Assembly: GCF_000376825.1 (NCBI RefSeq)
Contig: NZ_AQXW01000004.1
Location: forward strand, 2,046,001 to 2,110,000
DNA: 64,000 bases
DNA from: Demetria terragena DSM 11295
GTDB lineage: Bacteria; Actinomycetota; Actinomycetes; Actinomycetales; Dermatophilaceae
Direction of reading: 5' to 3'
Under the pieces are notes generated by a model. That model was not told the origin of the DNA and did no database searches. It saw only the letters and a list, made by a program, of their open reading frames with translations. Shown here one piece after another: positions 14,903-53,349 of this stretch. Each line of letters starts with the position of its first letter. The stretch's first letter is position 1. Position numbers and translations under genes: made by a program.

Positions 14903-14921
14903 ATAGGTTAGGCTTACCGAA
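14903..14921 (+). promoter_or_regulatory. Iron box (IdeR/DmdR-type) of the siderophore biosynthesis operon
   Basis: ATAGGTTAGGCTTACCGAA agrees at 16 of 19 positions with the actinobacterial iron box TTAGGTTAGGCTAACCTAA. It lies 43 bases before mbtH, where an iron-loaded DtxR-family repressor would block transcription of the four biosynthesis genes when iron is plentiful. Confidence 0.88.
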
Positions 14922-14963
14922 GTAACATGGTTCGGTACGTCACACCCGGTCGAAAGTTTGAGG

Positions 14964-15212
14964 ATGAACCCGTTCGATGATGACAGCGGTCGATTCTGGG
15001 CCCTGGTGAACCAGGAGCAGCAGTACTCGTTGTGGCCCACCTTTCAGACAGTCCCGGGCGGTTGGGCCATCGCCTTCGGGGGCGCTGAAGGCGCAAGCCG
15101 CCAAGAGGTCCTCGAGTGGATCGAGCAGACCTGGACTGATCTGCGCCCACAGTCCTTGCGCGATCACATTGCTCAGCACCGCGCTGAGAACGCTGGCGTC
15201 ATCACCGGTTGA
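14964..15212 (+). CDS. MbtH-family NRPS accessory protein
   Basis: This 82-residue protein is an MbtH-like chaperone that binds NRPS adenylation domains and is needed for their folding or activity. It begins MNPFDDDSGRFWALVNQEQQYSLWP, continues VPGGWAIAFG and ends WTDLRPQSL, containing the family's conserved Asn, Ser-Leu-Trp-Pro and Trp residues. The ATG at 14964 is favoured over a TTG two codons upstream because MNPF is the usual beginning. It is the first gene after the iron box and likely serves the three adenylation domains of the NRPS downstream. Confidence 0.95.
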   Translation: MNPFDDDSGRFWALVNQEQQYSLWPTFQTVPGGWAIAFGGAEGASRQEVLEWIEQTWTDLRPQSLRDHIAQHRAENAGVITG

Positions 15213-15259
15213 CCGCAGCCTTTTTGCGCCCACCCATTCGACTGCTCCTGGAGATCGCT

Positions 15260-16927
15260 ATGCCTCGAACCGTCACCCATGCCGTCCGTTCGACGGACAC
15301 CACCGTGGAGCCTCTACACCTGGAGGGCGTGGTGCCCTACCCGGCCGACCTCGCCCAGGAGTACCGCCGCCACGGCTGGTGGCAAGACCAGACCTTCTCC
15401 GAAATGCTGTTCGACACCATCCAGCGAACGCCAGATCGGACCGCCCTCATCGCGGGCGAAAGCGCTCTGACCTACGCAGAGTTGGGAGAACGGGTCCTGC
15501 GTATCGCCGCCGGATTCCAGGCCATGGGGATCACGCGTGGCGACCGCGTCGTCGTGCAACTGCCCAACCTGCGCGAATACATCCCCCTGCTGTTCGGGTT
15601 GTATGAAATCGGTGCCATTCCGGTGCTGGCGCTGGCTGCTCATCAGCGCCACGAGATCAGCCACTTCGTCGAGTTGGCAGGCGCCTGTGCCTATCTCACA
15701 GTCGAGTCCTACGACGGAGTCGACCTGGGATCCCTCGCCAAAGAACTCACCGAGTCGGTGGATTCGCTCGATCACGCGGTCGTCCTGACAGCAGACGGTC
15801 AGGGCCAGGCCCTTCGCGACCTACTCGCGCACGAGCCGCTGACCCACGAACGCCGGTCGCTGCCCGAAGACGTGGCCTTCTTGCAGCTGTCGGGCGGAAC
15901 AACCGGCACCTCGAAGCTGATACCCCACACGCACGAGGCATACCTCGGCTCCATGCGCGGGGCCGTTCGCGTCGGCGGCACGACCGAGGCCTCCGTTCAG
16001 TTGGTCGTCCTGCCGATGCCCCATGCGCTCGCCATGCGTTCGCCAGGTTTCTTGGGGGCCCTGTCGGTGGGCGCGACCGTGGTGTTGGCGCCCGATGCCA
16101 GCCCCGATTCAGCCTTCCCCTTGGTGGAGGAGCATCGCGTCACGGAACTCGCGCTCGTCCCGCCGCTCGCGCTGGCCTGGTTGAACTCATCGCTACGGAC
16201 GGGTTACGACCTGAGCAGTATGCAGATTTTGCGGGTGGGAGGTGCGGCGTTCGGTCCCGGCCCCGCGGCTCGAGTACGCCCCGAACTCGGCGCCACGCTG
16301 CAGCAGAGCTATGGCATGGCCGAGGGTCTGCACACCTTCACCGCGTTGGACGAAGACGACGCCATCATCACCACCCGGCAGGGCCGGCCGCCCTCAGCGG
16401 CGGACGAGATTCGCATCGTGGATGAGCATGAGTGCCCCGTGCCTGCGGGGCAACCGGGTCAGTTGTTGACGCGCGGGCCATACACGGTGCGTGGCTACTA
16501 CCGTGCGCCGCAACACAATGCCCAGGCGTTCACGGCAGATGGCTTCTATCGCGTGGGTGACCTCGTCACTCAGGACGACAACGGCTACCTGTCCGTCGTC
16601 GGGCGGGTCAAGGATCAGATCAATCGAGGGGGCGAAAAGGTCGCGCCGCTGGAGGTCGAGAACCTCCTGGTCGACCATCCGGATGTGCACGACGCGTCGG
16701 TGATCGGGGTTCCAGACGAGCGTCTCGGCGAGCACGTCAAGGCCTTCCTGGTGCCGCGGCGCGGGGTGGAGCCGTCGACGTTGACGGTGGCCGTCATGCG
16801 CGCCTACCTCCGCGAGCGCGGGCTGGCGCCCTACAAACTGCCCGACCAAGTGGAGGTCGTCACCCATTTCCCGCGGACGGTCGCGGGAAAGGTCAGCAAA
16901 CGAGATCAACGAACTCAGAAAGCATGA
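15260..16927 (+). CDS. Aryl-acid AMP ligase (EntE/DhbE family), predicted 3,4-dihydroxybenzoate-activating
   Basis: This stand-alone adenylation enzyme (555 residues) activates an aromatic acid with ATP and loads it on an aryl carrier protein. Motifs: [18 protein letters not shown] (A3), [10 protein letters not shown] (A5), FYRVGDL and [12 protein letters not shown] (A7-A8), and GKVSKRDQR with the catalytic Lys (A10). In DhbE the 2-hydroxyl of 2,3-DHB is bound by Asn235 in HNYPLSSPG; here the matching segment is HALAMRSPG (H255, Ala256). Ser261, which favours DHB over salicylate, is kept. Loss of that Asn fits a substrate without a 2-hydroxyl, such as 3,4-DHB (inference). GGAG precedes the ATG. 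The partner carrier is probably the fusion protein at 29030. Confidence 0.88.
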
Positions 16928-16928
16928 C

Positions 16929-19900
16929 GTGACCGCACCACACTTTCTGCCGCTCTCGACGGCGCAGCGCGGCGTCTGGTCGGCTCAACAGATCTTTCCG
17001 ACCTCGCCCGTCTATCGAGTTGGTCAGGTCATCTGGCTCGACGGCGAGATTGACCCGGCGCGATTCGTCGCGGCCATCGACGCCGCCGTCCTCGAAACCG
17101 AAGCGCTACGAGTGGAGTTCGACGACACCGACGGATCTCCAGTGCAGGCCGTGCGCGAGGGGCGGAAGGTCGACACTCAGGTCGAACCAGACGTCCTGAC
17201 CGACGCGGAGATCGTTGAACGCGCGCGGGTCGACTACAGGTCCGAGGTCTCAGGCGCGGACCTGTACGAGCCTGCCTCGCTGCTGGCCCGACGGTCAGAA
17301 GGCGGGTGGGCGTGGGCGTTCACTCACCATCACTTGGTGCTGGACGCCTACGGTGTCTCGCTGTTCGTGCGGCGGGTTTCCGAGCACTACACGGCAGCAG
17401 TCGCCCCCGTACCGGTCGCGGAGAAGTGGTTCGGCAATCTGTCGGAGGTCGTTGAGGGTCCGCAGTCGAGCCAGACAGCCGACGCCGAGCGCGACGCTCG
17501 GGCTTATTGGCAGGACCTGGTATCGGAGGCTGAGGGCCGCCAGGTGAGTGAGGTGCCGCTGGATGAGGCGTTCTCCTTCCGCCCCGCACTGGCCAGCGTG
17601 CCGTTGCCTGACGACATTCGAGACCAGCTCAACGGCTGGGCCCGAGCAGCGAGGTTGTTCTGGCCCGACGTCCTCGTGGGGCTGTGGGGGATGTACGTCG
17701 CTCGCACCCAGCACCAGGATCACCTTGCAGTGCGGATGCCTTTCATGCTGCGCGATGGAGCCGCTGCACTGCGTACACCCTCGATGGCTTCACGGATCTT
17801 CCCGGTTGTCGTCGGCTTGCGGCCAGATGATTCCCTCACGCAGGTCTTGCGGACGATCTCGACTCAAGTGCGCGCGGTGCCGAAGCAGGACGCGATTGAA
17901 GACGCGCAGATAGCTCGTTTGTGGCCAGGTGGGGAGGCGGACTTCTTTGCGCTACCGGTCATCAACCTCAAGCTCTTGGACTACTCCGCCGACTTTGCAG
18001 GCGTCGCCGGCCTTGAGGAAACCGTCAACGCCGGACCTGTCGCTCCGCTGGATCTGTCTGTCTATAACGACCCGGTGCACGGATTCCTCATCGACGTGCG
18101 CGGGCGCTCCGCAACCGTCGCGGGCCTGTCCTTGCAGGAGCACGCGACGGCATTCGGTCAGTTCATGCGTTCTGCGTTGGCGCAATCAGCACAGGTAACG
18201 CTGGCTGAGCTCGATCGACTTCTCCCGCGTGCCAATGTCGCACTGCCGCAGGGTATTCAGCCCGAAGTCGAGGTATCGACCGTCGATGAGATGGTTCGAG
18301 CCCGAGCGTTGACGTCTGCCGACCGGGTGGCCGTGCTCGACGATCAAAGCGGGACCGCATGGACCTTCGGCGAGTTCGACGCGCGGGTCAATGCGCTGGC
18401 GGCGCTGCTGATCGAGCAAGGCGTCGAGACCGGTGACCGGGTGGGAGTGCTCCTTCCTCGCTCGCCGGAGCTCGTCTTGGCGATGGCGGCGATCCTGCGC
18501 GCCGGTGCTGCCTATCTCCCCATTGATCCGCGGCTTCCTCGCGAGCGCATCGACATGATTGTCGAGGACGGCATCCCGCGCGTGGTGTTGACCGACCAAC
18601 TGCGCTCTGACCTGACCTCTGCGAAGTCAGTGCACCTGGACGACTTGTCCGTGGTGGATGCCCTCGACCGGGGTCGTACGACGGCCCCGACGATGTCGCG
18701 CCCCCTCCTAACGAATGACCCGGTCTACGTCATCTTCACGTCGGGAACGACCGGTCGGCCCAAGGGCGTCGAAGTACCTCATCGGGCGCTGGTCAATCGA
18801 TTGGTCTGGGGACGCGAGTGCTATCCACTGCCCGACGGCACGAGCGTGCTCATGAAAACCCCTGTCTCGTTTGATGTTTCGGCTCCTGAGGTGTTCGCGT
18901 CGCTGGCCGAAGGCGCCAGGCTGGTCGTGGCGGCCGACGGTATGCATGGTGACCCCGTCTACTTGCACGACGTCATCCAGCGTCACCGGATCACCCGCAC
19001 CAACTTTGTGCCGTCCATGGCACAAGAGTTCCTTGCCGCCGCCCCGGGCCCGTACACCTGGCCCCACGTGACGATGGTCGCCGGCGAGGCCTTTCCGAGC
19101 GATCTCGGTGCGGCATTGTCCGAGCTGACAGGCGGCACCGTGCTCAACGTCTACGGGCCGACCGAGACCGGTGAGATCACGCACCACGAGTATTCACCCG
19201 CCGACTCAAGTGGTGTCGTCCCGATCGGTAAACCGATGGCGCACACGCTTGTTCGCGTATTAGACCCATGGTTGGGTCAGGTTCCCCCGGGAACACCCGG
19301 CGAGCTGTATCTGGGCGGCGCCCAGCTCGCGAGCGGTTACGTCGGTCGCACCAGGCTGACCGCTGAACGCTTCGTCGCCGACCCGGCCGGATCGCACGGT
19401 GAGCGGCTCTATCGCACCGGTGATCTGGTGCTCATCAACACCGATGGCGTCTTGGAATACCTCGGACGCGCCGACGACCAGATCAAGGTCCGTGGCCACC
19501 GGGTCGAGCCCAGCGAAGTGGCCAGTGTCCTTGAACTCCACCCCCATATCGATCGCGCAGTGGTCGTGCCCTTCGTGCATGAAGTGGCAGGGACTCAACT
19601 TTCTGCGTATTTCACCAGTGCAGAAGCAGATTCGGCGGACCTGGTGGAGGAGGCCCGGTCCCACCTGGTGGCCCGCCTGCCGGACTACATGGTCCCGTCG
19701 AGCATTCAACGCATTGCGCACGTACCCCTCACGACCAATGGCAAGATCGATCGCCGCGAGTTGCCCGAACCGCACCTTACGAACGCCCGGACAACAGGCG
19801 CGCTGCCGCAGACGGACGATGAGATTGTGCTCGCCGCGTCGATGCGGAAGGTTCTGTCGCTGCCTACCGAGACCCCTATCGGAGTCGACGATGACTTCTT

Positions 19901-22900
19901 CAGGCTGGGCGGACACTCGCTCCTGGCGACCCGACTCGTCGCCCGGATCAATGCGGCGTGCGGGGTTCGGGCGACCCTGAGGGATGTGTTCGATCATCCG
20001 ACGGTCTCCGGACTGGCTGACCTTGTCGATGGCCTCCGTGATGCTGCTCCGGACGAGTCCGATCAGGCCCTGAGTTCGGTTCGCCCCGAGCAGATCCCCG
20101 CCTCGTCTGGCCAGAGATCGTTGTGGTTCGCCGAGCAACTGGGCGGGCCCGGGGGGCGCTATGTCATACCGACCGTGGCGCGGCTGTCCGGCCCGCTCAA
20201 TGTCGCGGCGCTGGACTACGCGGTACGAGATGTGGTGGAGCGCCACGAGCCGTTGCGGACCCGACTGCGCTCGGTGGGGGACAGCCTCGTCCAGGACATC
20301 GCCTCTGTGGATGCCGTGGGCGATGCAGTGAGCGTGGCGGTTGAGGACTATCGGGAGGTCGGCCAGGCTGCGATTGATCGGCGAATCGGCGAGATCATCG
20401 GTGCGGGATTCGATCTCGCGGAGGATCTCCCCCTGCGGGCGGTGCTGCTGCGCGAGGATGAGGAGCACGCCCGGCTGGTGCTTGCCATCCATCACCACGC
20501 GCTAGACGAGTGGTCGTTGCCGGCACTGTTGAGCGATCTGTCACTGGCCTACGACGCTCGAGTGGCGGGCCGCGAGCCGTCGTGGCAACCCCTCGCGGTG
20601 CAGTACGCCGATCACACGCTGCGTCAGGCCGCCCTACTCGGCGACCCGCAACAGCACACCTCGCCGCTGGCTCGACACTTGGTGTACTGGCGTGAGGCGC
20701 TTCAAGGCGCGCCCGAAGAATCGACGATAACGCTCGACCGGGCCCGCCCGGCCGAGCCCACGCATCGTGGCTTCGACATCCCGTTCGCCCTGGATTCCGA
20801 GGTGGTCCAGGGACTGCACCGCGTCAGCGAACAGCTCGGTGCGACGCCGTTCATGGTGATGTCCGCGGCCACCGCGCTTGCGGTCTCAGCGCTTGGCGGC
20901 GGGGACGATGTGGTGGTCGGATCACCGGTCGGTGGACGTACGGCTGAGGGTGTTGCTGATGCGGTCGGATACTTCGCCAACGTTCTACCCATTCGGCATC
21001 AGCTGAGCGGGGCGGACACCTTGGCAGAGGTCGTCCTGCGTTCGCGCGAAAGGGTTTTGGACGCCTTCGCGCACCAGGAGGCGCCCTTCGATCAGATCCT
21101 CAGCGCGCTCGGTGTCGAACGCGACGCGAGCCGCAATCCGATCTATCAGGTCATGCTTACCCATCAACAGCACACGGGGGAGGCATTCCCGCTGGCGCTG
21201 TCCGGTGTCGAGGTCCAACCCAGTGAGGTCGGCATCGGCGCGGTCAAGGCCGATCTAGACATCTATGTCACGGACAGTCCGCAGGCGCTGAGTGGATTTG
21301 TCAGCGCGGCCCACGATCTCTTCGATCAGGAAACCGTCGAACGGCTCGTCGACGTGCTCCTCCGCATCTTGACCGAAATCGCTGCTGCGCCTGGCCGACG
21401 ACTTGCCACCGTGGACGTGTGTCCTGCCGAGCAAGCCAAGACACTGGCTCGCTGGTCGGCCGGAGAAGCTACGACCGACGAGGCGAGCACCGCTGACGAT
21501 CTTCTTCGCGCACAAGCGAATTCCTCGCCTGACCGGATTGCGCTAATTGACCACCCGACTGGCGCACGATGGTCGTACGCCGACCTAGCACGCGAGCAGA
21601 ACGCTGTCGCGAGGGTGCTCGTGGACCTCGGCGTCAAGGTCGGAGACCGCGTGTGCGTGGTGCTGCCTCGCGGACCAGAACTCGTCTTCACCTTGGCCGG
21701 GATATGGCGCGCGGGGGCAGCCTATGTACCCGTCGACCCGACCCATCCGACCGACTACGTCCTTGACGTGGTGGCGCGATCGTCCGCGTCAGCGGTGGTC
21801 AGCGACCGCGCGACAGCGGCGGGGCACGTATTGCGCGAGAGCACTTCGAATCTAGTGCTCATCGATGACCTTGTGCGTGATCGGGCGGCCGGCCAGAGCG
21901 TACTCGTGGAGGCGCCTGTGCTGGATCGGCCACTGCACCGTGATGATCCAGCATTCGCCATCTTCACCTCTGGTACGACGGGCCGGGCTAAGGGCGTGCA
22001 GGTGTCTCATGGTGCGCTGGTCAACCGACTTCGCTGGGGCAGTAAGTTGCTCGGCCTGGACGACGCTGGAGTGTGTCTTACCAAGAGTGGCGTCGGATTC
22101 GTGGATGCCGCCACCGAAGTGTTCGGACCGTTAGTGGCGGGGGCGACCACCGTGGTGGTGGACGATGAGACAGCGCGGGATCCGTCCGCACTGGGGGCGG
22201 TCGTACGCGAGCACGCCGTCAGCCATCTACTCACGGTGCCTAGCTTGGCGGAAATCCTCAGCGAGATCAGTGCTGAGGACAGCTTGACGTCGCTGCGCTC
22301 CTGGAGTTCGTCAGGCGAACCACTCCCGGCCGGCACCCTGAACGCGATGCGCACGGCTGCCCCCGGTGCCCAGATCTTCAACTTCTACGGCTCGACTGAA
22401 GTTACCGGGGACGCAACAGTTGGGAGTCTGCCATCCGCCGAGGCAGCGGTGCGTGAGGTGGCGATCGGGCGACCTCAGCCCGGCGTCTCTACGTGGATTC
22501 TGGATCCGTGGCTGCGCCCCGTCCCTATCGGCGTGGTGGGCGAGCTGTATGTCGGAGGAGCCCAGCTCGCCGACGGTTACCTTGGCCAGCCGCAGTTGTC
22601 GGCCGAACGCTTCGTCGCTGACCCGTTTAGTCAGGTAGGCGGGCGACTGTTCCGTACCGGCGACCTGGCGTGCTGGAACCCGTTGGGAGAGATCGACTTC
22701 CACGGGCGAGCCGACGACCAGGTCAAGATTCGTGGACACCGCGTCGAGCCCGAACATGTGAGTCAGATCGTGCGCGACCATCCGTTGGTCAGCGGCGCCT
22801 ACGTCGCGGCGCACGACACAGGAGGGATGACCCAACTGGTCGCGTACTTCACCACAGTGCAGGACGCTGACGACCTCAACGAGTCTGTTCGTGAGCACTG

Positions 22901-25900
22901 CGCCGCGCGCCTACCCGACTACCTTGTTCCGGCGCAGTTTGTGTCGCTTGAGACATTTCCGTTGACGCCTAACGGCAAGATCGACCGCCGCGGCTTGCCG
23001 CTGCCGGATCCTGACCTGTCGAGCGCGGGTCCACTGCCCCAGACCGGCACAGAGGCCAGCGTTGCCGCCGTGATGGGCAGCGTGCTGGGCATCGAGCAGG
23101 ACCATCCGCTCGGCCTCCAGGACCACTTCTTCCGGCGAGGCGGCGACTCGTTGCTCGCGGCGCGGATGGTCACGCAGCTCAACACCGCCTTGACGGCGTC
23201 GCTGCGCATCCGCGATGTCTTCACCCACCCCACGGTGGGCGGTCTGGCCGCATTGTTGGAGGCGCCCGCTGTCGGGGCTCAGGCACCAGCGCCACTCCCA
23301 TCGATCAGAGACGTCGTTCGTCCCGATCCAGTCCCTGCTTCGCTAGGCCAAGAGGCGCTGTGGGTCCTGGACGAAATGGGGGACGGTGCTGCCTACCAGG
23401 TGGCACTTGCCCTGCGCGTCGAGGGCGGCGCGGATCCGAGGTGCTTAAGCGAGGCGGTCACCCAACTCGCGACCCGACACGAGATCCTGCGGACGGTGTT
23501 CGTACCGGATGATCACGGGAATCTGACTCAGGACATACGGCCCGTTCAGGAGGCGCCGACACTTCGGGTGGAAGCGGTGCAGACGGAAGTCGTCGCCGAG
23601 CGCGTCAACGACTTGCGCTCTCACCGGCTCAACTTGGCTACTGAGGGCGGTGTTGCGTTCACGTTGCTGCAGACCGGAGCCGATGACTACCTGGTGGTTC
23701 ACGGCCATCACATCGTGATCGACGAAGGTTCGATTGCCCCGCTCGTGCGCGACCTGAACGTGTTGTACACGGCGGGCCTCGAGGGCGTCCCGGCGAACCT
23801 GCCGGGCACCTGCGCGCAATCCGCTGAATTTGCCCTATGGCAGCGGGAAGTGGTCGGCGAGCGAACCGACCCCAACGCGCGTTGCTTGGCCGACCTGGCG
23901 TACTGGAAGAGCACCCTTCGTGGACTCCCTACCGAGACGCTGTTGCCCCTTGACCGGCCGCGGTCGCGGACCAGCACGCGAACCATTCGAACAGTGGAAT
24001 CGACTGTGGGACAGGGGGATTCTCGGAGCGTTCGCGACGCGCTCGCAGAGCATGGAGCGACGCCGCTGCAAGCTGTGACCGCTGCCCTCGCAGCCTCGCT
24101 GTGGTGGGAGGGCGCCGGAACAGCCATCCCGATCGGAACGCCAGTCGACCTGCGCGACCAGCCGGAACTTGCTGACGCCATTGGCTATCTCGTCAACACC
24201 GTGGTGGTCCGGGCTGATCTAGAGCCGGACGCTGGCTTTGCCGAGGTTGTCGGGGGTGTCCGCGAGCGGGTGCTCACGGCGGCGGAGCACAAGTTGACCC
24301 CCTTCGACCGTGTCGTGGAGGCGGTGAACCCACCGCGGCTGCCTGGAGTCAGTCCGCTATTCCAAGTGATGACGGCCGCCTTGAATGGGGGACACGACGC
24401 CGCCCAGGGTCCGTTGGTGCCCGACGCCTCCGTGTTGGGCGATCCAATCGAAAGCGCCCAGCGCGCAGCACTGTTCGACCTCGTGTGCGCAATCGCCGCG
24501 GACGAAGATGGTGCGCTTACCTTGCGGTTCAACGCCGCTCGAGAGTTGTTCGACGACACGACCATTCAGCGACTCATCTCCCAGACGGGACAGTTTCTCG
24601 TCCTTGGCCTGCGCTATCCGGAGTTGCCACTGCGCCACCTCGGGCACCTCGTCCGAGCGCACGCTCAAGTTCGGTCGAACTCGCTACCGCAGCCGGGCAC
24701 CCGGCACCGGCTTCCCGTCGCGGGATTCCGCCCCGAAGAAGCACCTCTGTGGCGTGCCGCAGTCGACTACCTGCGAGCTAGCCTCCCCGAGGCGGACTCA
24801 TTGGAACTTGACCATCATGAAGATCAAGCTTTCCTTGCAGGTCGTCTTCAGAGTCGCGAACTTCATTCGCACCTCGTCGATCTCGCATCTGAGCTGGTGC
24901 AGTCGTATGCCTCGCACACCCCACTGGTGATGGAGTCTTCTGCCACCTCGAGACACCCACGGTTGCGTCCGGCCGACCGGATGCGATTGTCGAGTTCTGA
25001 GCTCGCTCAGATACGTGCGGCATACGGCGATGACTGTCGACTGCTGCCGCTGTCTAGCCTGCAGAGCGGGCTTTTTTACCACATGGTCAGGGCCGAGGAG
25101 TCTGGCGAACGGCATGCCTACGTCTCGCAGGCGCTGCGTGAGTTCTCCGGAGTCGTTGACCCGGAACGGCTCCGCACGATCACCGGCCAGGTGGTCGACC
25201 GGTATCCCAACCTGCGGGCGGTTTTTGTGGCCCTGGGCGACACCGAGGTGCAGGTCATCCCGGCTCAGTCGCAGGTGCCATTCACGGTGTTTTCGCTGGA
25301 GGAGTGGCGATCGCAAGACACGCAGTTGGACGACTTCCTGGCCCAGGAGCGCGCGAATCCCTTTGAACCGCATCGGCCCCCGATGCTCCGATTCACACTC
25401 GTGCAGCACCAGGAGGACGCCTGGACCCTGGCCATGACCTTTGAGCACATCCTCATGGATGGCTGGTCGATCAATGCCCTGCTCAACGAGATCATTGACA
25501 CCTATGCGGACCCCAGCCTGCTCACTGCGTCCACGCCCGCGTCGTATGAGGACTATCTCGACTGGCTCGAACGGCAGGATGCCGACGTAGCGTTCCGGGA
25601 CTGGCACGGCTATTTGGCGGACGTCACCGAACCCACCATTCTGTGGCCAGAAGGTGGTGACCTCAGCGGCGGCGCGCATACCGGCGACGTTGCGCGGGAC
25701 CTGTCCGCCGCCGATGCGAACGCCGTGTTCGCCGCGGCCCAACATGCCGGTGTGACGGTTGGAACCCTGCTTCAGACTGCCTGGGCCATCACGCTGGCTC
25801 GGATGACCGGTCGCAGCACCGTGACCTTCGGCAACACCGTCTCTGGTCGTCCTGCTGACTTGGTCGATGCCGACCGAATGATTGGGCTGCTCTTCAACAC

Positions 25901-28900
25901 CGTCCCCATGTGCGTCACGCTCAGCCCTGGGGAATCAGCGGAAGGACTGTTGCATCGGGTCCAGACCGAACAACTTCAGGTCATCGATCATCCCTACGTC
26001 GAGCTCAGTGCTCTGCAGCGGCTTGTGGGGATCGGAACGTTGTTCGACACCCTCTTTGTCGTCCAGAACCTGCCGCTCGGCCCGATGACCGATGCTTCCC
26101 GCCCGGATGGCTTGCAGGTCACGGGCGGGTCGATCAACGATTCGACGCACTATCCGGTGACCTTTGCGGTTAACCCGTGGGAAGAATCAGGACGTGCGTC
26201 AGTACACGTCCGACTGTCGTATCGCACTGATGCTCTTGCGGATTCGGCGGCGGAGCGACTCGTTGAGCGCTACGCCCACGTGTTGGCTTCACTCGTCGCA
26301 GACTTGAGGCAACCCATCGGCCGGTTGCCCGCAGCGATACCAGATGATGCCGCGCTCGAACAGCAGGGGCACCGCCAGGAGATCCCCTGGATAACCGTCG
26401 GCGACCTTCTCGTGGAGGCCGTCGCGCGTTCACCGCACGCGACGGCACTGGTTGCGGGCGAACGCGAGTTGACCTTCGCGGAGTTCTCGGCGCGGGTCCA
26501 TCAGTACGCGCGCGTCCTGATGGATAGCGGCGTGGGCCCAGAGCATCGCGTCGCGCTACTCCTCCCGCGCGATGAGCGAATGATCATCGCGATGTTTGCC
26601 GTCTTTGCCGTCGGCGCAGCGTATGTCCCCATCGATGGTGAGCTGCCCGACGAGCGGATCTCTACGATGGTGGGGATTGCGCGACCAACGGCGACGCTCG
26701 TCACTGACCGCGACGCTGAGCGCCTGGCCGGTCGAGCGACCGGGCACATCCTCAATCTCGATGAGGCGGATGTTCAGACCCGCATCCACCACGCTGACTC
26801 GGGTCCGATCACGGACGAAGAGCGCGGCGTACCGGTCCACCCAGACCACCTCGCGTACATCATCTTTACCTCGGGCTCGACCGGTACGCCAAAGGGTGTG
26901 GCGGTCGGCTACCGGGGCCTGACCAACATGTATGTCAACCATGTTGCCGAGATCTTTGACCGCGTGGTTGCCGAGCAAGGCGGCCGCCGCATGAAGATCG
27001 CGCACACGACATCGTTCTCGTTCGATGCGTCGTGGGAACAACTGTTTTGGCTGCTGCACGGGCACGAGGTACACGTCATCGACGAGGAGATGCGCCGCGA
27101 ACCCGAGCGTCTGCTGGAGCACTATGACCAACGGCGGATCGACGGCTTCGACGTGACGCCGTCCTACGGCCAGGTGCTCGTGGACCAGGGTCTGTTGGAG
27201 CGTCCCCGTCCGCTCGGCGATTCCGTCGACGCGGATGCGCCCGGAGTGGTCTTTGTGTCGCTGGGCGGAGAAGCCGTTCCGGACGCGCTGTGGCGCGCTT
27301 TGCGTGAGGCACCCGGGGTGGAGGCCTACAACCTTTATGGGCCAACGGAATACACGATCAACGCGTTGGGTGCTGACCTATCGGATTCAGAGAGCTCAAG
27401 TGTGGGCCGCCCGATTCTGAATACCCACGCCTACATCCTGGACGACAACCTTCAGCGAGTGCTTCCGGGCGTGCCAGGCGAGCTCTATCTCGCGGGTAGC
27501 GGTACTGCGCGCGGCTACTGGGCTCAGGCGGGGCGCACCGCGGCTCAGTTCGTCGCGTGTCCCTGGCAGCCTGGCGAGCGGATGTACCGCACGGGCGACC
27601 GCGCCCGGTGGAAGCCCGACGGCACCATCGACTATCTCGGTCGAGCAGATGATCAGGTCAAGATCCGCGGCTACCGCATCGAACCCGGCGAGGTGTCAGA
27701 CACCTTGACCACCGACCCCACGGTGGCGCGAGCCACGGTCATCGCCCGTCCGGACGCGCAGGGCGCGCTGCAGTTGTACGGGTACGTCGTGCCGGCGCAG
27801 GGCCAGCCGGCCGATCTCGACCTGGACTCCGTGCGCGCTCGCGCGCGCACCATCCTGCCGGACTACATGATTCCGGCCGGATTGGCTGCCTTGGCCGACC
27901 TGCCGCTCTCAGTGAACGGCAAGATCGACGCCCGAAGCCTGCCCGAAATCGAGATCTCGCAGGCGGAGTATGCCGCGCCAACCACGGATGCCGAGACCGC
28001 CGTGACCAGCGTCGTAGCCGACCTCCTGGGCATCGGGGAAGTCTCCACACACGCGAATTTCTTTGATATTGGGGGGAATTCGCTGCTAGCCATGCGCTTG
28101 GTAGCCCGACTGAACGACCGGCTCAACAGTTCGTTGCTGGTCAAGGACGTCTTCGCCAGCCAAGTGCTGTCGGATCTGGCGGCACTCGCGGACCGAGAAG
28201 ATGGCGCTCCGGCGGATCTCCTCGACGCGGTGACTCTGCCGCTTGCGCGCTCAACAAACGGTCGTCACCTGTTCTGTGCTCACGCACGCTACGGGCACGC
28301 CGCGTTGTACGCGGACCTGGTCAACTACGTGCCGGATGGCCTCGGCGTGGTCGGGTTGCAAGACCCCGCGCATGCCGGGTTGCGGACGGAGTTCGACACG
28401 ATTGAAGACCTCGCCGCTACCTATGCGGATGCCATTCAACAGGTCCAGCCGAGCGGGCCGTACGACCTGCTCGGGTGGTCCTTTGGCGGGCACATCATGT
28501 TTGCCGTGGGACGCGTACTCCACGAGCGTGGGGAGACGGTGGGGTCGCTGACGATCATCGACACGACGCCGTCAGCGAGAGGCCTGTATGAGGCCGGCCA
28601 GGTGGTGCCGCGACCGGGGGTTCCCGTTGCCGACGACGACCTCAGACAGCGCGAGTTCCTCGCCGTCTACGCCCAGGAGTTGCGCGAAGTGCTTGGCGAG
28701 GACGCGAGTCGAGAGGTCTTTGCCGACCGTGACCAACTCGCCTCCTTCGCCATCTCCGGGCTGCGCTGCGAGCGACTCATGGCACCCGACACCGTGGGTT
28801 CCCTGTCGGCTGCGGCGCTGGTCGTCGCGGCAGGTGGCCCTCCGGTGGACACCGATGAGGGCGCAGGCGCATGGCGCCGCCATCTTCCGCAGGCAGAGGT

Positions 28901-29030
28901 GGTGCGCGTCGAGGACGAAGACCACCACTCAATTGTTCGGCCTGAGCGCGGGATCCCGCGCTGGGCGCATCACCTGATGAGGCTGCTCGACCAGGGCAAC
29001 CCCACCAACGTTCTCAAGGAGACCAACTGA
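16929..29030 (+). CDS. Siderophore NRPS, C-A-T-C-A-T-C-(vestigial)-C-A-T-TE
   Basis: This 4033-residue cytosolic synthetase starts at a GTG one base after the AMP-ligase stop. Approximate residues: C1 1-435 (H134-H135, D139); A1 440-945; T1 with Ser997; C2 1050-1490 (H1188-H1189, D1193); A2 1510-2020; T2 with Ser2074; C3 2125-2570 (H2260-H2261, D2265); a 110-residue stretch with no LGGxS; C4 2690-3135 (E2839-H2840, D2844, DG intact); A3 3150-3660; T3 with Ser3718; thioesterase 3765-4030 (GWSFGG, Ser3851; His near 3999). My hand-read ten-residue codes are DVPNMAVEIK (A1, unassigned), VDTLSSFGDK (A2, beta-alanine-like because Val-Asp replaces the usual Asp) and DAEDSGLINK (A3, Lys/Orn-like). 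C1 should accept the aryl group from the carrier encoded at 29030. The C3-C4 tandem without an A domain is odd. Domain calls are firm; substrates are inference. Confidence 0.95.
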
Positions 29031-30118
29031 TGAGCCTTGCTGTGGAAACGATGACTGCCGATGTCGCCGACCTGCTCTATGTGCAGACTCAAGAACTCGA
29101 TTGGGAACTTGACCTGCGCGACCAGGGCATGGATTCGGTACGCATCATGGAATTGGTGGAGCGCTGGCGCCAAGCGGGCGTTGCTGGCATCAGCTTCCGG
29201 CACCTGGCCGAAGACCGCCGTTTTGAGCGGTGGGTGGAGGTCGTGAGTGAGTTGCAAGGCGAGACCGCGGACCCCACCCGACGAAAGACCTGCATGGCGA
29301 CGGTCTCACTCGGCGGGTCCTTGGAGGAGAAGATTGAGGCGATCGCCGGCGCAGGCTTCGACAGCATCGAACTCGTCGACGCTGATCTGCGCGCGTCTTC
29401 AATGTCCCCGGCGGAGACTGCGCGCCGTTGCGCCGACGTGGGACTGGGCATCGACTTTTACCAGCCGTTCCGTCGTGCCGAGGGCGTGAGCGACGCTGAG
29501 TTCTCTCAGGTGGTGAGCCGGTTCCGCATGGAGCTGGCCGTGATGGCATCCGTGGGATGCAGCTCAATCCTGGTGGTCTCGAATACCGACGGAGACGCGG
29601 ATCCGGATCGGGCCCGATCTGTCCACCAACTGGCGACCTTGGCTGACGTGGCCGCCGAGCACGACATCACGGTGACCTTCGAGGCCCTCGCATGGGGCAC
29701 CCACATCGGTCGGTTCGCCGATGCCCTCGATGTCGTACGCCAAGTGGATCACCCGGCACTGTCGGTAACTGTCGACACCTTCCACCTGATCAGTCGGGGT
29801 GACGATGTCGAGGCACTGCGTGAGGTCGAGATCGACCGGATCGGGCTCGTACAGATCGCTGATGCACCGTGGCGCGACCTGGACCTGATGACCTGGAGCC
29901 GAAACCACCGTGGCTTCCCAGGCGAGGGCGACTTCGATCTGCGAACTCCGTTGGCCCACTTGCTTGCGGGCGGGTATCAGGGTCCGCTATCTCTGGAGAT
30001 CTTCAACCCTCGGTTGCGTGAACTTCCGCCGACGGCCGTAGCGGCCCGAGGCGCTCGCGCGCTGCGGGGCTTGATCGAGGACGCCGAACGTCCCGTCACG
30101 GTCACCGCTGCCGGCTAG
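29030..30118 (+). CDS. Aryl carrier protein fused to 3-dehydroshikimate dehydratase
   Basis: This 362-residue fusion has an EntB-like aryl carrier at residues 1-75 (LRDQGMDSVRIMELVERW, phosphopantetheine site Ser36). From residue 86 it has a TIM-barrel of the sugar-phosphate-isomerase superfamily, closest to QuiC-type 3-dehydroshikimate dehydratase (KTCMATVSLGGSLEEKIEAI, TFEALAWGTHIGRF, VDTFHLISRGDD, LSLEIFN). Putative metal ligands are E218, D249, Q275 and E323; their spacing (31, 26, 48) equals what I recall for Pseudomonas QuiC1. The enzyme would make protocatechuate from a shikimate intermediate and the carrier would hold it for NRPS C1. The start overlaps the NRPS stop (TGATG) and has AAGGAG upstream. 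In EntB the carrier follows an isochorismatase instead. Confidence 0.88.
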   Translation: MSLAVETMTADVADLLYVQTQELDWELDLRDQGMDSVRIMELVERWRQAGVAGISFRHLAEDRRFERWVEVVSELQGETADPTRRKTCMATVSLGGSLEEKIEAIAGAGFDSIELVDADLRASSMSPAETARRCADVGLGIDFYQPFRRAEGVSDAEFSQVVSRFRMELAVMASVGCSSILVVSNTDGDADPDRARSVHQLATLADVAAEHDITVTFEALAWGTHIGRFADALDVVRQVDHPALSVTVDTFHLISRGDDVEALREVEIDRIGLVQIADAPWRDLDLMTWSRNHRGFPGEGDFDLRTPLAHLLAGGYQGPLSLEIFNPRLRELPPTAVAARGARALRGLIEDAERPVTVTAAG

Positions 30119-30121: not shown

Positions 30122-30988
30122 TCAGTCGACCGGAGATCTGGGGTCAAGAGGCGCCACTGTTGGCGTTCCGGTGACCGGGTCGGGCACCACGAGCGCTCGC
30201 AGACCAAAGACGTCCTCGATGAGTTCTGCGGTGATCACCTCTGCCGGCGGCCCGGTCGTGACGACCTTGCCGGCATGCATCACGATGAGGTGGTCGGCGT
30301 AGCGCGCTGCCTGATTGAGGTCATGCAGCACCGCCACGATGGTGCGGCCCTGCTCGTGCAGGGTGCGGAACAACTCCATCAGCTCGTACTGATGCGCGAT
30401 GTCGAGGTAGGTCGTCGGCTCGTCCAGCAGCATGATGGGGGTGTCCTGGGCCAAGAGCATCGCGACCCAGACCCGCTGTCGCTGCCCGCCCGACAATTCC
30501 GCGACAGCACGCCCGGACAACTCGGTGAGTTGGGTAGCCTCGAGCGCCGCGCGGACGGCGTCCGCATCGCTGGCCCTCCACTGCTGGATCAGGCTTTGGT
30601 ACGGCGCGCGTCCACGAGCGATCAGGTCGGCCACTCGAATCCCCTCGGGCGCGATCGACGTCTGTGGAAGCAGTCCAAGGATGCGAGCGGCTTCCTTGGG
30701 CGCGTACTTCGTGACGGATTTGCCGTCCAGGAAGATGTCACCGCTCGTGGGGGTGAGCACGCGCGCCAGCGCACGCAGCACCGTCGACTTCCCGCACCCG
30801 TTGGGTCCGATGATGGCGGTGAAAGAACGATCCGGAATCTCCGTCGACAAGTCTTCGGAGACCACCCGATTCGGATAACCGATGGTGGCGTGTTCCGTGA
30901 CGATGCGGGCGTTCCGCTGCGGTGCATCCCGGTCCGCCGGGGCATCGCCCAGTGTTGTCCTCATGTCGTCCTTATCCGAGGTGGTCAT
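30122..30988 (-). CDS. Ferric-siderophore ABC transporter ATPase (FecE/FepC type)
   Basis: This 288-residue ATPase energises siderophore uptake. Walker A is GPNGCGKST, the signature LSGGQRQRVW, Walker B PIMLLDEPT followed by the family-typical TYLDIAHQYE, and the switch His is in VLHDLNQAARYAD. The start at 30988 overlaps the upstream permease stop (ATGA); an ATG nine codons later is also possible. It is the last gene of the importer operon and converges with the carrier/dehydratase gene, only 3 bases apart, with no hairpin between them. Confidence 0.93.
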   Translation of the reverse strand: MTTSDKDDMRTTLGDAPADRDAPQRNARIVTEHATIGYPNRVVSEDLSTEIPDRSFTAIIGPNGCGKSTVLRALARVLTPTSGDIFLDGKSVTKYAPKEAARILGLLPQTSIAPEGIRVADLIARGRAPYQSLIQQWRASDADAVRAALEATQLTELSGRAVAELSGGQRQRVWVAMLLAQDTPIMLLDEPTTYLDIAHQYELMELFRTLHEQGRTIVAVLHDLNQAARYADHLIVMHAGKVVTTGPPAEVITAELIEDVFGLRALVVPDPVTGTPTVAPLDPRSPVD

Positions 30989-32061
30989 GACAGCATGCCG
31001 GACTGCCGACGCGCCTCGCGGGTCAGCAGCCAGATCAAGTAGGTGCCGCCGATGCACACGGTGAGCAGACCGACGGGAATCGGGCGGTACAACTGTCCGA
31101 TCACGAGCGACAGCAGCAGGGCGGTCGACAACAGCGCCGCACCCATCGCTGCAGAGCCTGCCACGCTGACGCCGGGTGACTTGGTCAGTCGTCGTGCTAA
31201 CTGTGGAGCGGCAAGCGCGACGAAGCTGATGGGTCCGGCCGCAGCGGTCACCAAGGCCGTGGTCGCCACGCCAATCACGAGCAGTCCCAGACGAGTCCGG
31301 CCAACCCGGGTGCCCTGGGTGATCGCGGTGTCATCGCCGAGTTCAAGACGACGCAAGGCTGGGCTGAGCGCGCCGACAGCGACCACGATGACGGCGGCGG
31401 CCACGAGCGAGGGCGCCATCGAGGTCCAGGTCACCTTTGAGAGTGAGCCTGCGCTCCACAAGCCGACAACCATCGCGTCCTCAAGTTTCGCGCGGGTGAT
31501 CAAGTAGCCATTGATCGCGGTGAGCATGGCCGAGAGGGCGATACCGACGATGATGAGGCGGAAGCCAGTGATGCCGCCGCGATAGGCGAGCACATAGACG
31601 GCGAAGGCCGTGATGAGGCCACCGCTGAGGGCCGCAATCGCGATGTCCCAGTAGCTGGCGGTGCCAAGGACCAAGACGGTGACGGCGACACCGGTGTAGG
31701 ACCCGGCGTCGAAGCCGATGACATCTGGGGAGCCCAGCGGGTTGCGCGTGAGCGACTGAAAAATGGCTCCACCGATGCCGAGTAGGCCGCCGAAGACGAT
31801 GCCGGACAGGACGATGGGCAGCCGCCATTCGGTCACGATCGGGCTATAGAACTCCGAACCGGTGCCGGTCAAGGACTTCGCGACATCGACGGCGCTAATG
31901 CGGATATCGCCGATCCCGAGCGAAACCACCGAGACGATGAGGGAGACGCAGATGAGGGCAATCGCCACACTGGCGATGCGCAGGTTGACCCGAAGAGACA
32001 ACCACGGCAGGCGTAGCTGCCAACTCGGGTGACCAAAGTCAACGGTCGGTCGAGTCGTCAT
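30985..32061 (-). CDS. Ferric-siderophore ABC permease, second subunit (FepG-like)
   Basis: This 358-residue membrane protein of the FecCD family has about nine to ten helices. It includes RLPIVLSGIVFGGLLGIGGAIFQSLTRNPLGSPDVIGFDAG, the coupling segment that contacts the ATPase, and GPISFVALAAPQLARRLTKSPG. Together with the product of the preceding gene it forms the heterodimeric channel. Both ends overlap the neighbouring genes as ATGA, so the three genes are co-translated. Confidence 0.92.
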   Translation of the reverse strand: MTTRPTVDFGHPSWQLRLPWLSLRVNLRIASVAIALICVSLIVSVVSLGIGDIRISAVDVAKSLTGTGSEFYSPIVTEWRLPIVLSGIVFGGLLGIGGAIFQSLTRNPLGSPDVIGFDAGSYTGVAVTVLVLGTASYWDIAIAALSGGLITAFAVYVLAYRGGITGFRLIIVGIALSAMLTAINGYLITRAKLEDAMVVGLWSAGSLSKVTWTSMAPSLVAAAVIVVAVGALSPALRRLELGDDTAITQGTRVGRTRLGLLVIGVATTALVTAAAGPISFVALAAPQLARRLTKSPGVSVAGSAAMGAALLSTALLLSLVIGQLYRPIPVGLLTVCIGGTYLIWLLTREARRQSGMLS

Positions 32062-33119
32062 AGGGCGCTCACGTCACGTCTGCGGACCAACGCAATGAGG
32101 ACAGGCGCCCCGAGGACGGCGGTGACGATCCAGACCTCGATCTCCCCAGGCCGGGCGATCACCCGGCCGACGACGTCGGCAATCAAAACGAACGCAGGCG
32201 CCGCGAGTAAGGAGTACGCCATGATCCAGCGCTGGTCTGGCCCGACGAACCAGCGAACAACGTGCGGCACCATCAGACCCACGAACGCGATGCCTCCGGT
32301 GAGGGCCGTCGCGCCGCCAGCCAACAGGGTGAGCGCGATGACACCAAAGACTCGGACCCGGCGGACGTTGGTGCCCAAGGACGCTGCGAGGTCGTCGCCG
32401 AGAGCGATCGAATTCAGCGACGTGGCCAGGGCCAGGGCGATAAGTAGACCGACAATGATGAACGGTGCGACCAGGCCAGCGTCCGCAAGGGTTGCTCTGG
32501 CCAGTGATCCAACCGTCCAATTGCGCACTCCGCGAAAGGTCTCCGGGTCGAGCAAAGTAAAGAAGGTTTCGATGCCGGTGAGGACCGCGCCAAGCGCCAC
32601 CCCAGCGAGCACCAACGTGATGGGTGAGGCGGTGCCTCCGCCGCCGACGGACCCGATCGCAAAGACGGCAACAGTTGCCACCGCAGCCCCGAGGAACGCA
32701 ACCCAGATGTATTGGCTGACCGATGTGAGCCCGAAGATGCCGATGCCGATGGTGACGGCAAACCCGGCCCCCGCGTTGACTCCGAGGATTCCAGGATCGG
32801 CGAGGGGGTTGCGGGTGAGGGCCTGAATGAGGGCCCCCGCAACGCCGAGCGCGGCGCCGACCATGATGCCCACCAGCGTCCGTGGCCAGCGTTCGGACCA
32901 CACGATGATGGACTCGGTGCTGTTGTCCCCGCGCGACCACAGGGCCGACCACACGTCGCTATAACTCAGTGGATTTGCACCGTGCGCCAAGCTAAGGATG
33001 AAGGCGACGAACAGCGCTGCGCCAATGACCAACAGGCCAATCGCCCGTCGGCCACCAAAAGACGGCGATTCCACCGAACCCGGAGTGGGCTCGGTGGAAT
33101 CGCGGGTGGTCATTGACAT
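32058..33119 (-). CDS. Ferric-siderophore ABC permease, first subunit (FepD-like)
   Basis: This 353-residue FecCD-family membrane protein includes RWPRTLVGIMVGAALGVAGALIQALTRNPLADPGILGVNAGAG and GGIAFVGLMVPHVVRWFVGPDQRW, the two most conserved family segments, and about nine to ten helices. Two in-frame ATG codons (33119 and 33113) are close together and neither has a strong ribosome-binding site. A perfect 12-bp palindrome (CGGGACGTCCCG, 33142-33153) sits in the 50-base gap after the binding-protein gene and may lower expression of the downstream genes relative to it. Confidence 0.92.
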   Translation of the reverse strand: MSMTTRDSTEPTPGSVESPSFGGRRAIGLLVIGAALFVAFILSLAHGANPLSYSDVWSALWSRGDNSTESIIVWSERWPRTLVGIMVGAALGVAGALIQALTRNPLADPGILGVNAGAGFAVTIGIGIFGLTSVSQYIWVAFLGAAVATVAVFAIGSVGGGGTASPITLVLAGVALGAVLTGIETFFTLLDPETFRGVRNWTVGSLARATLADAGLVAPFIIVGLLIALALATSLNSIALGDDLAASLGTNVRRVRVFGVIALTLLAGGATALTGGIAFVGLMVPHVVRWFVGPDQRWIMAYSLLAAPAFVLIADVVGRVIARPGEIEVWIVTAVLGAPVLIALVRRRDVSAL

Positions 33120-33169: not shown

Positions 33170-34234
33170 TCAGAGTTTGAGATCGCCGAACCAGTCACCC
33201 ATGGTCTTGGTGGCCCAGGGGAGCGAGGTTGCGCTCGCGCCGCGGCGCAGTACCCAGGTGACCTCAGCGCCAGGCTGCTCGGAGGTGCGCCCGATGTAGT
33301 GCTTCTCCTTGACCGGATCCAGCGCCTTGAAGAGCGGCGTCTTGTCTCGCTTGGCCTTGGCGGCTGGGTCGACGTAGAACATCATCAACACGTCGCCGTC
33401 GAGTTTGCCGACGTTCTCATTGGACACCGTGTCGTCCTTGACGAATTCCTTGGCCAACGGGTTGGGCTTGAAGCCCATGTCCACCATCAGCTCCTCCGTC
33501 GTGCTACCAGCGATCGTGTAGTACTCGATCTGCCCGGTGTATTCGGTGGCGATGGTGATTGTCTTGCCCTTGACCTCCGGGTGTTTCTTAGCGACGTCGG
33601 CAGTGGCCTTGTCGGCCTTGGTGATCGCGGCGTTAGCTGCCTTAGGCAGGTCGACAGCCTTGCCGATCATCCGTTGGGTCTCGCGCCAGTCAATGTCCTC
33701 GCCTGGAACCTGCGTTGGGTTGTCTAGCACCGGCGCGATCGACGCCAGGCGCTTGTATTCATCTGCGCTCTGCAGGGCGTTCGGGGCGATGATCAGGTCA
33801 GGCTTTGCCGCCTTGATGCCCTCGAAGTTGATGGGATCGCGCCGCGTACGAGTGTCGACCGTCTCAATCGACTTCATCCAGGCCTGGTCACGCCACGGGT
33901 ACTTGACCTCTTCGGTGATGGTATAGACCGGCTTGAAGTTCAATGCCTCCAGCGCGTCCAGGTTGGGTGAGAAGCCGAAGACCGCAACCCGTTCGGGACG
34001 CTTCTTCAACTCCGATGAGCCGGCCCAGGTCTTCAGGGTCAACGGGTACGTCGTCGAGCCTTCGCCAGCGGGTACGCCCGACGAGGCGGGCTTAGCCGCG
34101 TCGCCCGATCCACTGCCTGAGGCGCTACTTCCTGGCTCTGGCGTCGAAGAACACGCGGTCAGAACCATCAGCAAGGCGATCAGCAGCGCGGGAAGCGCAA
34201 CGTGCCGATTACGGTGCAGCACAGAGGCTTTCAT
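33170..34234 (-). CDS. Ferric-siderophore substrate-binding lipoprotein
   Basis: This 354-residue FecB/FepB-family protein begins with a lipoprotein signal ending in the lipobox LTAC (Cys28), followed by a Ser/Gly-rich spacer. It should be anchored to the outer face of the membrane and capture the ferric siderophore. ERVAVFGFSPNLDALEALNFKPV and the KPDLIIAPNALQSADEYKRLASIAPVL segment are typical of clusters with an alpha-helical backbone between two lobes. An iron box lies 62 bases upstream. It is the first gene of the importer operon, which faces the biosynthetic genes; the uptake target is presumably the locus' own siderophore. Confidence 0.93.
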   Translation of the reverse strand: MKASVLHRNRHVALPALLIALLMVLTACSSTPEPGSSASGSGSGDAAKPASSGVPAGEGSTTYPLTLKTWAGSSELKKRPERVAVFGFSPNLDALEALNFKPVYTITEEVKYPWRDQAWMKSIETVDTRTRRDPINFEGIKAAKPDLIIAPNALQSADEYKRLASIAPVLDNPTQVPGEDIDWRETQRMIGKAVDLPKAANAAITKADKATADVAKKHPEVKGKTITIATEYTGQIEYYTIAGSTTEELMVDMGFKPNPLAKEFVKDDTVSNENVGKLDGDVLMMFYVDPAAKAKRDKTPLFKALDPVKEKHYIGRTSEQPGAEVTWVLRRGASATSLPWATKTMGDWFGDLKL

Positions 34235-34295: not shown

Positions 34296-34314
34296 CAAGG
34301 CAAGGCTACCCTAT
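34296..34314 (-). promoter_or_regulatory. Iron box of the importer operon
   Basis: On the minus strand ATAGGGTAGCCTTGCCTTG matches the degenerate iron box TWAGGTWAGSCTWACCTWA at about 15 of 19 positions. Placed upstream of the binding-protein gene, it would coordinate uptake with the synthesis operon at 14964. Confidence 0.7.
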
Positions 34315-34389
34315 GCTCGGGAGGTCATTGGCGCCACTCAGTAGCCCTATGCGGGACTGGGTGAGTCTCAGGTCAGCGGGCGACTTCGC

Positions 34390-52700: not shown

Positions 52701-53346
52701 GTCACTCCTGAGTGCAGCAGACAGCCTTCGCCAGGGCACGCCCCGGTCGATCGACCTGCGCCTGCAGCTGGGAGAGGACCGGGTTCTCACCGGCACGCTC
52801 AGCCCAGTCTTCGCCACCGGTCATGTCGTCGTGACCTATTCCTCGGTACGCGCCAAGCAGCGACTCCGCGGCTGGATCACCGCCCTGGCGCTCGCCGCCG
52901 CGGGCGTGGAGGAGTCGTCTCGAGTCGCCCATGTGATCGGCAAGGACCGGTCCTCGGCGGCCACGTACACCTTTGGGCCGGTCGACACCGAACGCGCCCG
53001 ACGCTGGCTCGGCGAGTTGGTCGACCTCTACGACCGCGGGATGCGCGAGCCGTTGCCCTTTGCGCCCGCGACCTCGCTCGCGGCAGCTGAGGTGCTGGTG
53101 CGCGGTCAGCGCAGCAGCGACAAGGACGCGATTACCCGTGCCCGCGCAGAGTGGGAGGGCCGGGGCGACTTCCCCGGAGAGAACGCCGATGCCGCCGTGA
53201 CTTGGGTTCATGGACCGAGGCGTTCGATCGAGGTGTTCACCGGCGAGACACTGCCCGATGAGGCGTGGAGCAAGTCGACGACCCGCCTCGGGCAGTACGC
53301 CACCCGGGTTTTCGGACCGATGCTCACCCACGGTCGAGAGGGGTGA
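49768..53346 (+). CDS. recC: Exodeoxyribonuclease V gamma subunit
   Basis: This 1192-residue RecC-like subunit of RecBCD splits DNA strands and scans for Chi in double-strand-break repair. Family features are VVVPARGVERWLTQRLSHRLG near the N-terminus, LSLFGHTRATGPDVELLIALGQ, CPDIETYAPLIQATFG, FRTGMLTVCTMTPMRSVPHRVVCLVGLDDGVFPR and the C-terminal nuclease-like part. The start is a GTG; no strong ribosome-binding site is present, and TAGAGT just upstream allows a leaderless transcript. Residues about 298-381 are a repeat-encoded insert (PVER and QGLDSPSAGVGV units) with no counterpart in the family, between conserved blocks. It is followed after 3 bases by recB. Confidence 0.92.
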   Translation: MALLLHHAPRTDVLADELAGLLAQPVDDPFTEEVVVVPARGVERWLTQRLSHRLGTSRGDDGVCAGVRFLTPGSLVSLLLRRDRDDPWDPDRLVWPVLAAIDASLGQDWAAPLAHHLGRADASEQEVPTGRRYSLARRLAGLFASYGAQRPQVLTDWAAGKDSDGASQPLPDDLAWQPPLWREVIARVDAPPPDQRLAATVGRLRAGDHTLELPGRLSLFGHTRATGPDVELLIALGQHRDVHWWLPQPSPALWAALDEVAAEGPVRRVDDRSAERAEHLLLSSLGRDARELRRTLGPTPVERPMPVERPMPVERRTPVERRTPVELVETKPQGLDSPSAGASGGSTGVGVQGLDSPSAGVGVQGLDSPSTGVGVQGLDSPPARASLLRHLQDDIRANHEPTDADRAARPWGAEDRSLQVHACHGPTRQVEVLREVLVGLLQDNPTLEPRDILVMCPDIETYAPLIQATFGLHDIDLSAPGQARRVGHPGHELRVRLADRALTSTNPLLSLTTRLVTLATSRVTASEVLDLASLPAVRRRFGLDVDDLETFTGWIEQAAVRWGLDEQHREEFHLGWLRDNTWAFGLDRLLLGVARADGPQHDVGGVLPIDDVGSTAIESAGALAELVDRLATALTQMREAQSPGAWADILTNSVRALADVPPDDAWQLTQLDRELRAVVEAADPDTVLHLSDVRRMLERNLGGRPTRSNFRTGMLTVCTMTPMRSVPHRVVCLVGLDDGVFPRMSGVDGDDVLQRDPMTGERDRRSEDRQLLLDAVLAATETLVLTYSGADEHTGEPRPPAVPLGELVDAARRTVEVPADRDVVTRHPLQSHDPRNLMPRQLGTATPFSFDPAAVAGARAGLAPRPVSPTLLDQRLESRPPADVSLEALMRFFDNPARGFLRDRLDVTVVREEDELDDAVPVEVERGLGTWAVGDRMLRDALAGIPLPEVLTRELQRGLLPPAALSAQALTQVKPAVASLLSAADSLRQGTPRSIDLRLQLGEDRVLTGTLSPVFATGHVVVTYSSVRAKQRLRGWITALALAAAGVEESSRVAHVIGKDRSSAATYTFGPVDTERARRWLGELVDLYDRGMREPLPFAPATSLAAAEVLVRGQRSSDKDAITRARAEWEGRGDFPGENADAAVTWVHGPRRSIEVFTGETLPDEAWSKSTTRLGQYATRVFGPMLTHGREG
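50659..50910. repeat. In-frame repeat array inside recC
   Basis: Five 18-bp units of the type CCTATGCCGGTCGAGCGA (50659-50748), ending in GTCGAGACC, are followed by units beginning CAGGGTCTCGACTCGCCCTC: one of 57 bp, two of 36 bp and a partial one (50764-50910). All keep the reading frame. The GGTCGAGCTTGTCGAGACC core also occurs in recB. Confidence 0.92.
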
Positions 53347-53349
53347 ACC

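Follow-up and report, generated by a model that had tools for sequence, protein, structure and literature searches.

An aryl carrier protein fused to a predicted QuiC-type 3-dehydroshikimate dehydratase in a siderophore gene cluster of Demetria terragena

EntB, DhbB and VibB each unite an isochorismatase and an aryl carrier protein (ArCP) in one polypeptide, so that the enzyme producing a starter acid is joined to its own carrier, while a separate aryl-AMP ligase and a non-ribosomal peptide synthetase (NRPS) complete the system. In petrobactin synthesis, 3,4-dihydroxybenzoate (3,4-DHB) is made by a 3-dehydroshikimate dehydratase (DSD), activated by a ligase and held by a carrier, the three components being AsbF, AsbC and AsbD (PMC6836290). 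A published classification places AsbF in the anabolic class of DSDs and all other classes in catabolism (PMC9324987). For the two-domain dehydratases QuiC1 and QsuB, the active site was described as R64, L97, E134, L136, D165, H168, Q191, S206, R210 and E239, and the N-terminal domain of QsuB alone is an active dehydratase (PMC7442255). A literature search found no described fusion of a 3-dehydroshikimate dehydratase with an aryl carrier protein, and a preliminary description of the DNA considered here had likewise known of none.

The window, meaning the whole stretch of DNA that was analysed, comprises 64,000 nt of Demetria terragena DSM 11295 (NZ_AQXW01000004.1, positions 2,046,001-2,110,000, forward strand). 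Sequence comparisons confirm that one open reading frame (ORF) of this window encodes a single protein in which an ArCP is followed by a predicted DSD barrel. As a fusion of domains it is new, and the chemistry that it implies is known. Judged from its sequence and surroundings, the protein very probably supplies and carries 3,4-DHB (protocatechuate) as the starter of a catechol siderophore that is made by an NRPS under iron regulation.

The fusion gene and its surroundings

The fusion ORF occupies positions 29030-30118 of the plus strand and encodes 362 aa from ATG to TAG. Its ATG overlaps the TGA of a 4033-aa NRPS ORF (16929-29030). Pfam recognizes a PP-binding domain at aa 10-51 (28.9 bits, cut-off 20.8) and an AP_endonuc_2 TIM barrel at aa 103-346 (132.7 bits), while no Pfam match to an HPPD-like or an isochorismatase domain was found in the ORF. 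Together with the NCBIfam result given below, these matches bear out the architecture of a carrier joined to a QuiC/DSD-type barrel that had been proposed for 29030-30118. The protein is divided as follows, the limits of the linker being drawn from relatives in which the ArCP ends at the equivalent of aa 78-79 and homology to the barrel sets in at about aa 85.

29030..29263, plus strand: ArCP domain, approximately aa 1-78, with Ser36 as the phosphopantetheine site; Pfam PP-binding
29264..29284, plus strand: short linker from ArCP to barrel, about aa 79-85
29285..30085, plus strand: predicted DSD barrel, aa 86-352 (start at about 85); matches QuiC NF042435 and 5hmq

An assembly artefact is unlikely, because codon-position GC is even over the junction between ArCP and barrel and the locus lies inside a 2.7-Mb contig.

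The fusion gene stands at the end of a series formed by an iron box, an MbtH-like gene, the aryl-AMP ligase gene and the NRPS gene. A set of Fep-like genes lies tail to tail with this series on the opposite strand. Two genomes of the same order and of another family, designated G288 and G301, encode both halves of the fusion as separate genes, and identities to their proteins are included where available.

14903..14921, plus strand: DtxR/IdeR-type iron box, ATAGGTTAGGCTTACCGAA, upstream of the operon
14958..15212, plus strand: MbtH-like gene (Pfam MbtH, 73.6 bits; likely true start ATG 14965)
15209..16927, plus strand: stand-alone aryl-AMP ligase (DHB_AMP_lig, 581.8 bits, below the 723.6 cut-off)
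16929..29030, plus strand: NRPS of 4033 aa (Pfam: four condensation, three adenylation and three carrier domains, and a thioesterase)
30122..31057, minus strand: FepC-like ferric-siderophore ABC transporter ATPase (75-76% identical in G288 and G301)
30985..32061, minus strand: FepG-like FecCD permease (60% identical in G288)
32058..33119, minus strand: FepD-like FecCD permease (64-68% identical in G288 and G301)
33170..34234, minus strand: FepB-like siderophore-binding protein (Pfam Peripla_BP_2; 47% identical in G301)

The iron box differs from TTAGGTTAGNCTAACCTAA at three positions, and no such site is expected in shuffled sequences. A poor iron-box match (about 13/19), below every threshold used, is also seen at 34299-34317, upstream of the FepB-like gene. 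The MbtH genes of related clusters are 65-68% identical to the MbtH-like gene of the window.

Within the NRPS, aa ~2126-3150 (23300-26400) seemingly contain two tandem condensation-type domains, placed after the second carrier and before the third adenylation domain. When read against a GrsA segment, the adenylation code of the second module suggests a beta-alanine-like specificity (VDTLSSFGD in the window, IDTLTSFGD in G288). This code is of interest because the MbtH and ligase genes of G288 (L095/L099) and of another genome, G375 (L135), have an aspartate 1-decarboxylase (panD-like) gene between them. Elsewhere in the window, positions 49768-58523 hold a three-gene operon of RecC-, RecB- and RecD-like genes (RecBCD).

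The predicted dehydratase barrel and the carrier domain

The preliminary description had assigned the C-terminal half to the QuiC/DSD family, with E218, D249, Q275 and E323 as putative metal ligands, and had raised the doubt that the barrel might fit another isomerase family better. The NCBIfam model QuiC NF042435 matches aa 88-352 with 238.9 bits over the first 268 of its 635 positions, a score that falls short of the 1200-bit full-length cut-off since the protein has no second QuiC domain. When compared with PDB sequences, the barrel scores 213 bits against QuiC1 (5hmq), 43.5 bits against IolI, the next family, and 20 bits against AsbF. The family assignment is thereby upheld, QuiC1 being far ahead of the other isomerase-like families. 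The barrel is 39-51% identical to the two-domain dehydratases of the QuiC1/QsuB type, and the proposed ligands also stood: all four are the same in each of 44 aligned barrels, and their counterparts in QuiC1/QsuB are E134, D165, Q191 and E239. More broadly, the ten published active-site residues of these enzymes are all retained, at a constant offset of 84.

In an AlphaFold2 model of the whole protein, the barrel reaches a pLDDT of about 97. Modelling against both QuiC1 and AsbF had been proposed earlier, and it separates the two: among solved folds QuiC1 (5hmq) comes first, superposing at 1.3-1.4 A over 270 columns with 41% identity, and AsbF ranks 37th, at 3.4 A with 16% identity. Because the match to 5hmq is ungapped, the four putative ligand side chains are predicted to converge. 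By the bit scores and the model distances alike, the barrel is placed in the QuiC line and not in the AsbF line. The ORF stops 279 aa after the start of the barrel region, so that the C-terminal HPPD-like domain is absent; on sequence grounds the barrel is assigned to the QuiC lineage, outside the two-domain class because it lacks the second domain.

The N-terminal half contains the carrier motif LRDQGMDSVRIMELVERWR, which includes Ser36, and has the GxDS phosphopantetheine site found in EntB-type ArCPs. Its closest PDB sequences are the ArCPs of EntB and pyochelin synthetase. This half was modelled apart with its own relatives because a joint alignment of ArCPs and DSDs had placed the ArCP rows wrongly. 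The resulting model (mean pLDDT 88) has four helices, at residues 5-16, 36-48, 56-60 and 65-78, with Ser36 at the start of helix 2, and its top fold matches are carrier proteins, including EntB and the yersiniabactin ArCP. Motif, PDB neighbours and predicted fold thus agree with the EntB-like carrier bearing Ser36 that had been described previously. In EntB, according to Lai, Walsh and colleagues, M249, F264 and A268 reportedly matter for contact with the condensation domain of EntF; M40, F56 and A60 of the fusion, which align with these residues, are offered as a lead only.

Unfused counterparts and the likely origin of the fusion

In G288 and G301, the start of a stand-alone ArCP gene (78-79 aa, 53-55% identical) overlaps the stop codon of the NRPS gene, at the exact position where the fusion begins in the window. 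A single-domain DSD of about 270-285 aa (62-63% identical) adjoins Fep-type orthologues that are 47-76% identical to those of the window. The ligase (57-59% identical) and the C-terminal module of the NRPS (56% identical) are shared as well. In G288, an iron box with two mismatches is located 18 bp before the DSD gene, and the iron-box-like sequence at the same place in G301 is weaker than the search threshold. The ArCP and DSD genes are on different contigs in both genomes. In G288, the DSD and ligase genes share one contig and the end of the NRPS gene and the ArCP gene another, and the four are likely to be linked in one cluster. From these sequence relationships, G288 and G301 look like carriers of the same pathway in unfused form. 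Further stand-alone ArCPs (29-41% identical) are found beside other NRPS clusters of the same family or order (L097, 9806-10024; L098, 9909-10124; L139, 11063-11311).

Judged by length, 92 of the 95 barrels collected belong to two-domain QuiC proteins, continuing for at least 589 aa, and the only barrel-only proteins are those of the window, G288 and G301. The DSDs of these three genomes form one clade with 100/100 support and a long stem, beside two-domain actinobacterial proteins. On the simplest view, a QuiC-type barrel was recruited to siderophore synthesis separately from AsbF and shed its second domain in the process. The siderophore DSD would thus apparently have a second origin, from a catabolic lineage. 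The stand-alone ArCP at the homologous site and the stand-alone ArCPs of other clusters point to fusion rather than fission: an ArCP gene directly following the NRPS gene was likely joined with the pathway's own single-domain DSD gene of QuiC descent.

The fusion itself appears to be rare. Protein searches covered overlapping sets of 188 genomes of the family, 396 of the order, 395 of the class, 13 of family f16 and 397 of the phylum, with thresholds from 1e-3 to 1e-80, and in these approximately 1,400 overlapping genome searches no ArCP-DSD fusion was found outside the window's own genome. The domain architecture, for which a check across actinobacterial genomes had been proposed, therefore combines PP-binding with a QuiC barrel and is confined to this genome among those searched. 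An apparently extended match in L020 (query 28-354) and further open frames upstream were considered as fusions and rejected as open-frame extensions devoid of a carrier motif. A pattern scan of the whole ORF across 84,980 species genomes, which requires near-exact peptide words and perhaps leaves out close kin of the window, revealed no fusion and only QuiC-type barrels, mostly from Rhodobacterales. Plasmid records contained only barrels of less than 60% identity, which are two-domain where annotated.

Proposed pathway, alternatives and comparison with known systems

We infer every chemical step, the identity of the substrates and the product of the following pathway. The metal-dependent C-terminal barrel would convert 3-dehydroshikimate into free 3,4-DHB, which would be adenylated by the separate ligase (15209-16927) and attached to Ser36 through its phosphopantetheine. 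The neighbouring NRPS would then pass the 3,4-DHB to the first amino acid by means of its first condensation domain, and the Fep-like ABC transporter would bring the ferric siderophore back into the cell. The earlier proposal that one polypeptide makes the acid and carries it stands as a reading, except for a direct handover, since the separate aryl-AMP ligase is needed between the two halves.

The identity of the starter is the point at which the ligase matters most directly. A pathway that uses 2,3-DHB or salicylate, with the barrel repurposed, would agree with the overall resemblance of the ligase to DhbE, its closest PDB match, and EntE, as well as with the single isochorismate synthase homologue of the genome (L093), which may serve menaquinone. 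However, the window ligase has Ala, Leu and Ser at the positions of DhbE Asn235, Tyr236 and Val329, which are occupied by Asn, Tyr or Phe, and Val in enzymes for 2,3-DHB and salicylate. In four ligases of genus g90, 53-59% identical to that of the window, these positions hold Ser, Met, and Gly or Ser. In this comparison with 2,3-DHB and salicylate enzymes, the pocket would fit another aryl acid, and its residues are a possible signature of 3,4-DHB ligases. The barrel moreover retains all DSD active-site residues and the genome lacks an EntB-type isochorismatase, its two PF00857 proteins resembling YcaC and nicotinamidase, which makes the use of 2,3-DHB or salicylate very improbable. No second DSD above 27 bits was found in the genome. 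Ligase matches in plasmid records, considered as counterparts of AsbC, were set aside as ordinary 2,3-DHB-type ligases by appearance among the matches listed. In a further genome, G353 (L137), a related ligase (53% identical) and an NRPS occur with no DSD nearby, together with a leucine carboxyl methyltransferase-family gene and an FAD monooxygenase gene; this cluster possibly uses a different aryl starter.

The barrel could also be a catabolic quinate or shikimate enzyme that stands beside an NRPS by chance, as its membership of the catabolic QuiC lineage and the published placement of all classes except AsbF in catabolism (PMC9324987) might suggest. This is hardly credible for a barrel that is fused to an ArCP, whose single-domain form adjoins siderophore uptake genes in two genomes and follows an iron box in G288, and whose genome has no PF00775 intradiol dioxygenase. 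A second, internal translation start would yield free DSD alongside the fusion: an in-frame ATG near codon 88 lies at the start of the barrel (KTC-MATVSL), and G301 has a Met at the same place, its gene starting a few codons earlier. It is unlikely, given that no clear ribosome-binding site precedes this ATG and that an apparent start codon lies upstream of the corresponding Met in both G288 and G301. By contrast, the chances are even that the DSD is active and the fusion mechanistically meaningless, two genes of the pathway having merged while 3,4-DHB diffuses freely to the ligase. Both parts are separate genes in the unfused relatives, and in every cluster seen the intervening ligase is a protein of its own, whereas the short linker and the intactness of both domains would suit selection, without proving it. 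Such free diffusion is compatible with the preferred explanation, in which the fusion supplies and carries the 3,4-DHB starter and which claims no channelling; the fusion may do no more than keep its two parts at a 1:1 ratio.

A broader scenario is marginally favoured, in which an NRPS siderophore pathway of actinobacteria recruited a QuiC-derived dehydratase, which lost the HPPD-like domain and was here fused to the carrier. The EntB solution would then have been built twice, production and capture of 3,4-DHB would be coupled, and the siderophore class would be independent of petrobactin. Such a protein would provide a second, unrelated enzyme for the design principle of EntB, the fusion of a starter enzyme with its own aryl carrier. 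It would also be a siderophore DSD of catabolic QuiC descent, whereas the published classification recognizes only AsbF as serving siderophores (PMC9324987). Together, the fused and unfused pairs constitute a natural experiment on fusion and starter loading, and they suggest a type of 3,4-DHB peptide siderophore that has yet to be described. Rules based on the 2,3-DHB pathway could miss clusters devoid of entA and entB, and the pairs are therefore useful as a sequence handle for genome mining.

Like EntB, DhbB and VibB, the fusion combines a starter enzyme and its ArCP and is accompanied by an NRPS and a free-standing aryl-AMP ligase. In contrast to EntB, its enzyme is a predicted dehydratase barrel unrelated to isochorismatase, its domains come in the reverse order, beginning with the carrier, 3,4-DHB instead of 2,3-DHB is the acid expected, and the predicted dehydratase would act directly on an intermediate of the shikimate pathway. 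The fusion may thus be read as a convergent analogue, working like EntB without belonging to the EntB family. It differs from QuiC1 and QsuB by having an N-terminal ArCP in place of any C-terminal HPPD-like domain, and by a context of siderophore synthesis, not quinate catabolism. The logic of the pathway is that of AsbF, AsbC and AsbD. However, the petrobactin enzyme, ligase and carrier are three separate proteins, as the preliminary description had stated, and belong to an NRPS-independent pathway, whereas here a QuiC-derived DSD and the carrier are fused and serve an NRPS.
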